A DNA stretch of 64,000 nt from Cellulophaga algicola DSM 14237 (GTDB lineage Bacteria; Bacteroidota; Bacteroidia; Flavobacteriales; Flavobacteriaceae): NCBI RefSeq assembly GCF_000186265.1, contig NC_014934.1:2666001-2730000 (forward strand). The letters run 5' to 3'. The notes below the pieces were generated by a model. It had not been told where the DNA came from. It ran no database searches and worked only from the letters and a program-made list of their open reading frames with translations. Made by a program: the position numbers and the translations under genes. This document shows positions 10,770-15,229 of this stretch, one piece after another; the first letter of the stretch is position 1; the number at the start of each line of letters is the position of its first letter.

Positions 10770-12167
10770 TTATATGGTCTCAGCAATTTCAAGTGCTTTT
10801 GTTAAAGCACCAAGTTTATTATAGGTCTCTTGTAATTCGTCTTCAGGCTTAGAGGCAGCAACAATTCCTGCGCCAGCTTGGTAATGTAGGCTATGGTTTT
10901 TACTAAGAAAGGTTCTAATCATAATAGCATGATTAAAGTTTCCATTAAAATCCATAAAACCTATAGCACCACCATAATAGCCTCTACTTGTTTTTTCGTA
11001 TTTTTCTATCAACTGCATCGCCATGTGTTTTGGAGCACCACTTAACGTACCTGCAGGAAAAGTATCTGCAACTACTTTCATGGTGGGGATGTCTTTTTTC
11101 TTTTGACCAACCACTTTAGATACAAGGTGAATAACGTGCGAAAAGAATTGTACTTCGCGGTAATTAGTTACTCTCACCATATTTCCATTACGGCTCAAAT
11201 CGTTTCGTGCTAAATCTACCAGCATTACATGCTCGCTATTTTCTTTATCATCCTCCGTCAATTCTTTTGCGATAATGGCATCTTTTTCATCATCTCCGGT
11301 ACGTTTAAAAGTACCGGCTATAGGATGAATTTCTGCAGCACCATCTTTAACGATTAATTGTGCTTCTGGAGAACTTCCGAATATTTTAAAATCGCCATAA
11401 TCAAAATAGAATAAATAAGGTGATGGATTTATAGAGCGTAGCGCTCTGTACACATTGAATTCATCGCCTTTAAATCCTTGAGAAAAACGACGTGATAATA
11501 CCAGTTGGAAAACATCACCTCTTTGGCAATGCTTTTTAGCTAGTTTTACCTGTTCTTTAAAATCATCATCTTCTAAATTTGAAGCAACTTTACCATCTAG
11601 GGTAAAGTTATAAGAAGCGAAATTCTTTACGTTTAATATTTGCTCTATTTCAGTGACGTTACTCTCTGATTCGTAACAGTTAGAAAAAATGTAGGCTTCA
11701 TTTTTAAAATGATTTATAGCGATGATATTTTTATAAACAGCATAATAAATATCTGGTATCGCAACCGAATTCTCTTTTTTAGAAACATTTACATCTTCAA
11801 AATACCGAACGGCATCATAAGCCATATAGCCAAAGAGGCCATTATCAATAAATTTAAAATCGTTCTCATCGGCTATAAACCTTTTGCTGTAATCTTCAAT
11901 GATGCTGACCACATCCGTAGAAGTGTCAATAGCTATTTCTTCAACCTTACCATCCGGGAATTGCTGGGTGATAATTTCGTTTTCTACTTTAATAGATGCA
12001 ATAGGATTGCAGCAGATATAAGAGAAACTGTTGTCATTGGCATGGTAGTCACTTCCTTCCAGTAAAATGCTGTTGGGGAAACGATCTCGAATTTTAAGGT
12101 ATACACTTACCGGAGTAATTGTGTCGGCAAGTATTTTCTTGTAATGGGTATGTAGTTTGTACGTCAT
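10770..12167 (-). CDS. Anthranilate synthase component I
   Basis: 465 residues, the chorismate-binding subunit and first enzyme of the pathway. The N-terminal regulatory motif LLEGSDYHANDNSFS corresponds to the LLES-type element that binds tryptophan for feedback inhibition, which is expected though one residue differs. The chorismate-binding domain includes GDVFQLVLSRRF, IFGSSPEAQL, HPIAGTFKRTG, EHVMLVDLARNDL, TFPAGTLSGAPK, YYGGAIGF and QAGAGIVAASKPEDE. It is the first structural gene after the leader peptide and attenuator hairpin. Confidence 0.97.
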   Translation of the reverse strand: MTYKLHTHYKKILADTITPVSVYLKIRDRFPNSILLEGSDYHANDNSFSYICCNPIASIKVENEIITQQFPDGKVEEIAIDTSTDVVSIIEDYSKRFIADENDFKFIDNGLFGYMAYDAVRYFEDVNVSKKENSVAIPDIYYAVYKNIIAINHFKNEAYIFSNCYESESNVTEIEQILNVKNFASYNFTLDGKVASNLEDDDFKEQVKLAKKHCQRGDVFQLVLSRRFSQGFKGDEFNVYRALRSINPSPYLFYFDYGDFKIFGSSPEAQLIVKDGAAEIHPIAGTFKRTGDDEKDAIIAKELTEDDKENSEHVMLVDLARNDLSRNGNMVRVTNYREVQFFSHVIHLVSKVVGQKKKDIPTMKVVADTFPAGTLSGAPKHMAMQLIEKYEKTSRGYYGGAIGFMDFNGNFNHAIMIRTFLSKNHSLHYQAGAGIVAASKPEDELQETYNKLGALTKALEIAETI

Positions 12168-12187
12168 CTTTAATGCTATAAAATAAG

Positions 12188-12214
12188 TAAGGCTTGTCGT
12201 GATGACAAGCCTTA
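12188..12214 (-). terminator. trp attenuator terminator hairpin
   Basis: An 11-bp perfect stem (TAAGGCTTGTC with GACAAGCCTTA, 5-base loop), read on the minus strand, lies between the leader-peptide stop (12244) and the trpE start (12167). It is followed by ACUUAUUUUAU, a moderate U tract. Position, strength and the Trp-rich leader upstream make it the likely terminator of a transcription attenuator. It could otherwise be a simple readthrough hairpin. Confidence 0.8.
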
Positions 12215-12225
12215 TATATATATTT

Positions 12226-12282
12226 AATACAATGGTGCTTTGCTCACGCGTTTTTTCGTAAGTTATTCCACCACCATGTATT
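12226..12282 (-). promoter_or_regulatory. Predicted 1:2 pairing of the trp attenuator
   Basis: In the minus-strand transcript, AAUACAUGGUG covering the first Trp codons (12272-12282) is complementary to CACCAUUGUAUU (12226-12237) with one bulged base. This would be the pause-type 1:2 structure. I could find only a 4-bp match (AAGC with GCUU) for a 2:3 antiterminator, so the full switching mechanism is not shown by eye. Confidence 0.55.
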
Positions 12283-12300
12283 TACAGTTAAATTTTTCAT
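12244..12300 (-). CDS. trp operon leader peptide with three tandem Trp codons
   Basis: An 18-codon ORF, MKNLTVNTWWWNNLRKNA, begins at 12300 and ends in TGA at 12244-12246, 76 bases before the trpE ATG. Three consecutive TGG codons in such a short peptide directly upstream of a terminator hairpin and trpE are the hallmark of ribosome-mediated trp attenuation. When Trp-tRNA is scarce a ribosome would stall at the TGG run and change folding of the RNA downstream. A GGAG lies only three bases before the ATG, because the promoter -7 element almost touches the start codon. Confidence 0.9.
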   Translation of the reverse strand: MKNLTVNTWWWNNLRKNA

Positions 12301-12306
12301 TGACTC

Positions 12307-12336
12307 CAAAGATAGAAATCATTTTTAAGATTTCAA
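12307..12336 (-). promoter_or_regulatory. trp operon promoter
   Basis: Read on the minus strand, TTG (12334-12336) is followed by 19 bases and then TATCTTTG (12307-12314), an exact match to the Bacteroidota TTG-N19-TAnnTTTG promoter. Transcription would start within roughly 5-8 bases of the -7 element. That is at or just before the leader-peptide ATG, implying an almost leaderless leader mRNA. Confidence 0.75.
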
Positions 12337-12357: not shown

Positions 12358-12394
12358 AAACCCCACAATACAATTAACAGTAGCGTGGGGTTTT
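12358..12394 (-). terminator. Terminator of the MarR-nitroreductase-YceI operon
   Basis: The arms AAACCCCAC and GTGGGGTTT form a 9-bp stem followed on the minus strand by an A/T run giving UUUAUUUUUUUU. It lies 19 bases past the yceI-like stop and isolates that operon from the trp promoter next to it. Confidence 0.85.
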
Positions 12395-14524: not shown

Positions 14525-15229
14525 ATGTACGAGTACGTTACCCCCAATGCCTATTTAAGTGTAATAATAGGTAATGGTATGCAAGAGTATACCATTAGCC
14601 ATTTTAATGCAAGTACTGGTGGGGTTACGAGCTTTGGTGGAGCTTATTATAATGGTAAAGATTTTAATGAAAAAGATTATCCAGAAGTTGGCACAGGAGA
14701 ATCATTTGTACCTATTTTGGACTCTGGTAAACAAGCCTATTATGATTTTCAAGATGGGGACCATGGTTGGCGAGCATTGAATACTGGTATGGCAATTTCT
14801 GATGTTTTTTTGGTGAAGTCTGTATTTAGCGGTTTATGGAAAGCTGTTTTGTCAAAAGGTGTTGTTGGTGGCACTAAGCGGTACTTTGGTTACGGAATGT
14901 CGCATGAATATGGTGCAAGCGTTGCAAGATGGAAACGAATGGGTGTTGATATGAGTGGGAAAAAACATCATTGGGCTATAAGTCGCGAATTAATGGAACG
15001 ACAACCTTGGCTAAAGCAGATAGGCAATCAGACCTGGAATTTAAAACGTTTTGGCAGTATAGCAAGCCACATGCGTTGGGGGCATGGGAATGCTTTTCCT
15101 AGTGAAGAATTATCACGTATAATTTACTGGAAATTAGCTTATCCTATATCTTCAGCCCCATGGTGGTTTAGATTAGGTGGAATTTCGACAGGTGGTCGTT
15201 TATATCAAAATATCGAGAGGGATGAATAA
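14525..15229 (+). CDS. Polymorphic-toxin C-terminal region with HHW nuclease-like motif
   Basis: The open frame gives 234 residues, but the ATG at 14525 is probably internal: coherent coding continues upstream in another frame, so this is likely the 3' part of a larger damaged gene. Residues 1-120 carry Gly/Tyr-rich linker-like sequence (GVTSFGGAYYNGKDFNEKDY, DGDHGWRALNTGMAISDVF). Residues 148-188 carry GKKHHWAISRELM, then QPWLKQIGNQTWNLKRFGS and SHMRWGHG. The HHW plus WN plus RWGHG pattern resembles the tips of Rhs-type and other polymorphic toxins with HNH-related nuclease folds; this is a pattern judgement, not a search result. The stop overlaps the next gene by 8 bases. Whether the protein is still made is unclear. 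Confidence 0.6.
   Translation: MYEYVTPNAYLSVIIGNGMQEYTISHFNASTGGVTSFGGAYYNGKDFNEKDYPEVGTGESFVPILDSGKQAYYDFQDGDHGWRALNTGMAISDVFLVKSVFSGLWKAVLSKGVVGGTKRYFGYGMSHEYGASVARWKRMGVDMSGKKHHWAISRELMERQPWLKQIGNQTWNLKRFGSIASHMRWGHGNAFPSEELSRIIYWKLAYPISSAPWWFRLGGISTGGRLYQNIERDE

Follow-up and report, generated by a model that had tools for sequence, protein, structure and literature searches.

The window (the whole 64,000-nucleotide stretch of Cellulophaga algicola DSM 14237 analyzed here) carries a trpEGDCFBA operon on its minus strand. Pfam identifies TrpE, a TrpG-like GATase, TrpD, TrpC and TrpF in that order, and trpB and trpA come next in the operon (ORFs judged by eye). The TrpE shares 98% identity with its counterpart in Cellulophaga baltica DSM 24729. 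The upstream neighbor of the trp locus is a YceI-domain gene (Pfam). Directly downstream of this gene, about 25 bases upstream of the trp promoter, there is a terminator-like hairpin (ACCCCAC...GTGGGGT plus T-runs, 12360-12392). The window also has a 234-aa ORF without a Pfam match at 14525-15229, followed on the same strand by an overlapping 160-aa ORF. The features of the trp locus are:

12334-12336, minus strand: TTG of the -33 element (read from the sequence)
12307-12314, minus strand: -7 element TATCTTTG (TAnnTTTG; read from the sequence, and relatives)
12301-12302, minus strand: predicted transcription start, giving a 5' UTR of 1-2 nt (from flavobacterial box-to-TSS distances)
12244-12300, minus strand: leader peptide ORF MKNLTVNTWWWNNLRKNA, stop TGA (sequence, and WW leaders of family genera)
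12268-12276, minus strand: three tandem Trp codons, the control codons (sequence)
12272-12282, minus strand: segment 1, outer strand AAUACAUGGUG, partner 12226-12237 (fold and RF01692 structure line)
12257-12262, minus strand: segment 1, inner, CUUACG, partner CGUGAG (alignment pairing)
12244-12248, minus strand: segment 2a, CGUGA, with the leader stop inside it, partner UCACG at 12198-12202 (alignment pairing)
12237-12240, minus strand: segment 2b, AAGC, partner GCUU at 12207-12210 in the terminator 5' arm (alignment; weaker support than 2a)
12226-12237, minus strand: segment 2, outer, CACCAUUGUAUU, partner the Trp codon region (RF01692 structure line and fold)
12188-12214, minus strand: intrinsic terminator, with 5' arm 12214-12204, loop 12203-12199 and 3' arm 12198-12188 (palindrome count and alignment)
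12180-12187, minus strand: interrupted U-tract CUUAUUUU (sequence)
12204-12320, minus strand: match to Rfam RF01692, Bacteroid-trp, 55.3 bits with a cut-off of 49 (covariance model)
10770-12167, minus strand: trpE, first gene of trpEGDCFBA (Pfam on trpE, G, D, C and F)

The promoter reads TTG, N19, TATCTTTG and six bases up to the leader ATG at 12300. The leader has 18 codons and a TGA, and the trpE ATG (12167) is 76 nt past the leader stop. The terminator has 11 bp if the outer U-A pair is counted, with loop AUCAC, and the U-tract that follows is broken up. An earlier note on this DNA had described the 18-codon ORF (12300-12244) with three tandem TGG codons (12276-12268), the 11-bp hairpin ahead of trpE (12214-12188) and an exact TTG-N19-TAnnTTTG promoter six bases before the leader ATG, and all are present. 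The segment said to be complementary to the Trp codons was recovered too: these codons pair with a downstream segment in the fold of the leader RNA (-36.3 kcal/mol, z -5.0 relative to 200 shuffles). The window has a single copy of this exact 10-bp palindrome with its 5-nt loop, where none is expected (100 shuffles). Four copies of TGGTGGTGG were counted in the window (0.19 expected), as were four of TTG-N19-TAnnTTTG (1.8 expected; 10 of 100 shuffles reach as many). The last two counts prove little alone, and the weight lies in conservation.

The leader matches RF01692 over the full model (1-131) at 55.3 bits, above the gathering cut-off of 49, and it is located upstream of trpEGDCFBA in a member of the Bacteroidetes, as for that family. 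This is the sole Rfam match above the gathering cut-off at the trp leader. Thus, the kind of element is already known. In the accessible text of the two sources, Weinberg et al. (PMC2864571, Table 1) enter Bacteroid-trp as 'y' for RNA, 'y' for cis-regulatory and 'n' for switch, and a 2019 paper (PMC6414381) describes the element as conserved ahead of the trp operon of F. psychrophilum and compares it with attenuation in E. coli. Given these publications on the Bacteroid-trp element, the idea of trp attenuation here is not new. The Cellulophaga element has in common with RF01692 the site before the trp operon, the Trp codons and a 1:2-type hairpin. The structure line of RF01692 contains this hairpin only and ends in the terminator 5' arm, with neither terminator nor antiterminator. 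No description of an antiterminator of Bacteroid-trp, or of a near-leaderless trp leader in the phylum, was found in the searched portion of the literature, which takes in few subscription papers and no supplements. The accessible part of PMC9723704 covers structured 5' regions of amino-acid operons in F. psychrophilum; 'trp' and 'tryptophan' are absent from its main text, which therefore gives no trp mechanism, antiterminator or leader start.

We surveyed one genome per genus of the Flavobacteriaceae (149 genomes), 148 of which have a TrpE-like match. Upstream DNA was taken for 130 of the 148; left out were 12 weak, paralogue-like matches, the fragments G066, G079 and G147, and the full-length G057, G062 and G124. 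An ATG-started ORF with tandem Trp codons precedes trpE in 125 of the 130 genera. A WWW leader is visible by eye in three of the five misses (L118 and L162 with a TTG start, L132 with a GTG start). The L104 stretch is trpE coding sequence without a leader region (an RF01692 match is at the end of another contig there), and no Trp leader was seen by eye in the L207 upstream stretch. A hairpin finder located the terminator in 123 of the 125 leaders, and the two misses (L192, L199) show one by eye. Most of the stems found have 9-15 bp. In the alignment, the terminator helix is paired in 99.7% of cells, with both-side changes in 5 pairs. The leader and hairpin, for which the earlier note had proposed a check in relatives, are therefore conserved.

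RF01692 matches 109 of the 149 family genomes (95 above the cut-off). In a draw across the phylum it matches 30 of 296 genomes, only two of them from outside the family. Both runs used stricter filters, which lose weak matches. Outside the family, 28 genomes of the class have a TrpE match (17 and 11 in two sets), and a WW, WWW or WLW leader precedes trpE in 27 of them; thus the real range is wider than what RF01692 recognizes. In the one exception, L259, RF01692 matches (L216) about 1.3 kb upstream of trpE. In other classes of the phylum (L385-L414), 17 of 30 trpE loci have a leader ORF with at least two close Trp codons, so trp attenuation may be phylum-wide.

Some loci have a small GIY-YIG-type ORF inserted between the trp terminator and trpE (L044, L058, L059, L061 at 1177-1461, L062, L081, L008, and L168 at 98-394 on the minus strand), and L117 may retain a remnant of one. 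Pfam PF01541 is matched by the L061 and L168 inserts; the other ORFs were judged by look. A palindrome like TTTCCGCGAAGGCGGAAA precedes most of the inserts, and no Rfam family match to it was found at the five insert loci and L117 that were scanned. The insert beside the attenuator looks like a recurrent mobile-like insertion.

The antiterminator pairing had been called not obvious by eye; comparison with relatives reveals it as the CGUGA...AAGC motif. By the leader stop is a sequence, mostly UCGUGA followed by A or G, whose complement is the terminator loop plus the first bases of the 3' arm (UCACGA). When the 123 genera are aligned (MAFFT-based), the bases in the six main column pairs form standard pairs in 112/122, 119/122, 118/122, 113/122, 119/123 and 114/123, and those in the flanking column pairs in only 45/122 and 64/108. 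The helices of segment 2 were scored on a separate alignment of 62 of the 123 genera. The helix of segment 2a with the loop is paired in 94.9% of cells and that of segment 2b with the 5' arm (AAGC:GCUU) in 67.9%. The helix of inner segment 1 (CUUACG, right after the Trp codons) with the motif is paired in 72.3% of cells. The whole antiterminator structure is 84.4% paired in the 62-genus alignment, and at most 46% when slid. Shuffling of partners lowers this value only to 83.7%, because the 2a columns hardly vary. Cells with changes on both sides number 7 in the same alignment (1.6 when shuffled), yet two slides give 11 and 8. Covariation, which the earlier note had suggested as a check, is scarce in these nearly invariant columns. 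The inner segment 1 helix has 37 cells changed on both sides as opposed to 11.7 in shuffles; a control slide of -3 also gives 37, with a slightly higher covariation score. As read from the alignment, this CUUACG:motif pairing is the usual competing 1:2 pairing.

We rejected APC-corrected mutual information as proof of the 2a-loop pairing. Only one segment 2a-loop pair (columns 47-118) stands near the top of the ranking, third of 1775 cross pairs, and the measure is uninformative because there is too little variation in the motif. The evidence comes instead from swaps, shuffles and a small number of divergent genera. Among the 103 genera whose loop is the usual one, 87 have a match better than that of dinucleotide shuffles (p<0.05). 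Twenty genera have unusual loops; the genus's own loop beats at least nine tenths of swapped loops in 11 and fails to do so in 9. When the upstream part is swapped 6 of the 20 pass, and 9 of the 20 reach p<0.05 in the shuffle. Motif and loop are wholly changed in L181, L196 and L208, which pass both partner swaps and the shuffle, and L191, L193, L204 and L205 pass the loop swap only. No convincing motif was identified in L184 and L198 among these 20. By these comparisons, at least three divergent genera have changed motif and loop together. The predicted antiterminator contacts with the best support in Flavobacteriaceae involve the loop and the beginning of the 3' arm; support for the 5' arm is weaker. 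On this point the 'complete attenuator' on the enterobacterial pattern has to be corrected.

The motif position in each genus is the best match to its own loop, and hence loop-defined; so placed, it begins 25-28 nt downstream of where the first Trp codon begins in 114 of the 123 family genera. Stop codon positions range, with one genus excepted, from 9 nt downstream of the motif start to 13 nt upstream of it, and the stop overlaps the motif in 61 of 123. The nearly fixed distance from Trp codons to motif, with a stop position that is not fixed, fits a stalled ribosome having to leave the motif free.

Nascent RNAs ending three bases into the 3' arm were folded with masks of our own choice (their size is that of the usual ribosome footprint); the stalled mask represents a ribosome on the third Trp codon. 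Across the 123 genera, pairs between upstream sequence and terminator average 13.0 with the stalled mask, 6.8 unmasked and 1.9 when masked to the stop, and at least eight such pairs form in 123/123, 61/123 and 8/123, respectively. With shuffled upstream sequence, the stalled mask gives 7.1 pairs on average as against the 13.0. Loop-side pairs number 6.6 (2.3 in shuffles) and 5'-arm pairs 6.4 (4.9 in shuffles), so that contact with the loop clearly exceeds chance and contact with the 5' arm exceeds it only slightly. The mean energy is -13.0 kcal/mol as opposed to -6.5 kcal/mol for shuffled sequence, and the real value is lower in 123/123. For the RNA in the window, the stalled antiterminator (-12.2 kcal/mol) is predicted to be less stable than the RNA with the terminator (-19.1 kcal/mol), and antitermination would thus have to win kinetically. 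Among the 27 class genomes outside the family, which have quite different sequences, the energy is below the shuffled mean in 27/27 (p<0.05 in 13/27), and upstream-terminator pairs are not above the shuffled mean in 7/27. The terminator 5' arm is often the main partner there (by eye).

The promoter gives an indication of where the message begins. In the accessible text of two flavobacterial studies, the -7 box is at -12 to -5 in F. psychrophilum (PMC9723704) and probable promoters of F. johnsoniae have 4-5 nt from box to start (PMC6847099). From this spacing, the 5' end of the Cellulophaga trp RNA is predicted 1-2 nt before the AUG, which suggests that the message starts almost exactly at the first leader codon. 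Of the 125 genera whose WW leader starts with ATG, 123 have an exact -7 box ahead of it, and in 107 of these 123 a TTG precedes the box at N16-22 (N19 or N20 is usual). In 80 named close relatives the box-to-ATG gap is 4-8 nt in 77, 28 and 30 nt in two, and one has no box. Family-wide (123 genera), the gap is 9 nt or less in 51, 10-12 nt in 14, 14-22 nt in 54 and longer in 4. The short-gap mode is 5 nt (25 genera; the calls for L101 and L139 are doubtful). For a gap of 14-22 nt the predicted 5' UTR is about 10-18 nt, and the WW leader that follows is of the same kind. Outside the family, the gap is 9 nt or less in 17 of 25 (13 of 20 for exact boxes alone), and 2 of 27 leaders have no box.

Within the Cellulophaga genome, we sampled 199 promoter-proximal ORFs in 20 stretches of 20 kb (400 kb). 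An exact -7 box is present within 70 nt in 51 of the 199, at 9 nt or less in 7 and at 4-9 nt in 4. With the exact -33/-7 pair, 9 of 345 ORFs qualify, which is too few for a rate, and one of them is at 9 nt or less.

A TrpE tree (quick, with long branches; 97 rows, 93 with a near/far state, and L104 mis-framed and without one) requires at least 13 changes between near and far starts, at least 8 of them forced by starred branches, and shuffled labels require 28.6. Thus, the start mode is clustered yet lineage-dependent, and so not needed for the switch. We claim no direction of change because the tree is quick and its branches long. The near-leaderless trp start, as predicted from promoters, is shared widely among relatives and is not required. 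The near-leaderless initiation raised in the earlier note therefore survives as a promoter-based proposal common in relatives; as a required step it does not, since 54 of the 123 family genera have a gap of 14-22 nt.

The histidine operon has a comparable arrangement. In the Cellulophaga genome, a MKNYTTHHHHFYTCFQAR leader precedes hisG (L241), and its box TACTTTTA, with one mismatch, is 7 nt before the ATG. His-rich leaders are present at 45 of 50 family hisG loci (the 50 were taken from 123 genomes with a match). The sequence upstream of hisG is thus likely to include a his attenuator. With near and far divided at 9 nt by an automatic rule that ignores kinship, his and trp agree in 34 of 41 genomes (15 both near, 19 both far). 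The disagreements are 7 with his far and trp near, and 0 the other way. By eye, G075, G129, G001 and G086 are apparent box-picking errors, G144 is borderline, the trp gap of 0 in G049 is doubtful and the his/trp difference in G131 looks real. No leader was seen in the Cellulophaga stretches before ilvD or two homoserine dehydrogenase genes, the latter two stretches stopping short of the gene start.

Trp control codons and an intrinsic terminator between leader and trpE are present in the sequence, and comparison and folding indicate, within the limits given above, a mutually exclusive antiterminator. We consider it very probable (about 0.86) that the element is a ribosome-mediated transcription attenuator of the trp operon. 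Attenuation of this kind had been claimed in the earlier note; the sequence supports it strongly, and it is already catalogued (RF01692; PMC2864571, PMC6414381). The complementarities and their conservation come from the comparison of genomes, to which the scheme below adds predicted ribosome positions, timing and effect on transcription. RNA polymerase would start 1-2 nt before the leader AUG, and a ribosome would load on the almost leaderless end without a Shine-Dalgarno sequence. When charged tRNA-Trp is plentiful, the ribosome would reach the stop and cover segment 2 (CGUGA...AAGC), and the terminator would form before trpE. When charged tRNA-Trp is short, the ribosome would stall on WWW and mask inner segment 1 (CUUACG). 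Segment 2, then free, would capture the emerging terminator loop and the first 3'-arm base or bases (UCACG), and probably also part of the terminator 5' arm (GCUU). With the terminator captured, transcription would read on into trpE.

Alternatively, segment 2 could form a pseudoknot with the loop while the lower terminator stem persists, and this pairing would tune or stabilize termination instead of preventing it. The best-conserved contacts reach no further than the loop and the initial bases of the 3' arm, stems mostly of 9-15 bp mean that the lower stem could remain, and the 5'-arm contacts in folds (6.4 as opposed to 4.9 shuffled) agree with this. In other families (L246, L249, L256), however, visual inspection shows segment 2 paired with the 5' arm itself, which excludes the terminator, and the motif has a competing partner right after the Trp codons; we find the pseudoknot quite improbable. 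Less credible by far is control of the terminator by a trans-acting factor, with the leader ORF incidental. TRAP-like proteins and T-box tRNA binding do control trp genes elsewhere (in Bacillus), but no T-box is recognized here, RF01692 being the sole Rfam match above the gathering cut-off, and the Trp-rich ORF is conserved, with its nearly fixed distance from Trp codons to segment 2.

The predicted start may also be misplaced. The true start could be further upstream or elsewhere, with an ordinary 5' UTR, so that 'near-leaderless' would be an artefact of box calling. The position is a promoter prediction, two short-gap calls in the family are doubtful (L101, L139), and the accessible text of several studies has very short 5' UTRs as few in the group: 5.5% are leaderless in F. 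psychrophilum (PMC9723704), about 3.7% of B. thetaiotaomicron 5' UTRs are shorter than 10 nt (PMC7366714), and in F. johnsoniae the 5' UTR exceeds 10 nt for 87% of the transcripts that have a probable promoter (PMC6847099). We nevertheless think an artefact unlikely: an exact box is 4-8 nt from the ATG in 77 of 80 close relatives and 9 nt or less from it in 51 of 123 genera, the TTG is properly spaced in 107 of 123, and only 4 of the 199 sampled Cellulophaga ORFs have an exact box at 4-9 nt.

The attenuator reading places the element beside trpL of E. coli, with which it shares a short Trp-rich ORF, competing 1:2, 2:3 and 3:4 pairings and ribosome position as the sensor. Enterobacterial trpL has a longer 5' UTR with a Shine-Dalgarno sequence. 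The Cellulophaga RNA differs from E. coli trpL in being predicted near-leaderless and in its three tandem Trp codons, and segment 2 in Flavobacteriaceae would take chiefly the terminator loop and first 3'-arm bases. Leaderless trp leaders are on record, in the accessible text, in Sinorhizobium (rnTrpL of S. meliloti, PMC7298713) and Streptomyces (trpL1 of S. lividans, MFAHSTRNWWWTAHPAAH, PMC8079986); in both, the RNA opens directly with the Trp leader ORF, within an attenuator before trpE, and both belong to phyla other than that of Cellulophaga. Several leaderless leader peptides are described for S. lividans (PMC8079986), whereas in Flavobacterium such mRNAs are few (PMC9723704, PMC6847099).

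What is new relative to the catalogue is the predicted antiterminator half, which is outside the Rfam model and the literature found, together with a near-leaderless start that appears shared but dispensable. We put forward a broader reading only tentatively, at slightly less than even odds. In Bacteroidia, where ribosomes make little use of Shine-Dalgarno sequences and mRNAs are mostly leadered, near-leaderless trp (and often his) attenuators would be old and widely kept, both operons tending to change initiation mode together, and the Flavobacteriaceae antiterminator would catch the emerging terminator loop and first 3'-arm bases rather than mainly the 5' arm. A catalogued motif with a one-hairpin published model becomes a testable switch with named bases, and RF01692 is seen to cover only part of the real range of trp leaders. 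The locus also provides a natural case for asking how ribosomes that seldom use Shine-Dalgarno sequences load fast enough on a nascent, almost leaderless RNA to determine whether a terminator located some 90-115 nt from the start will form.
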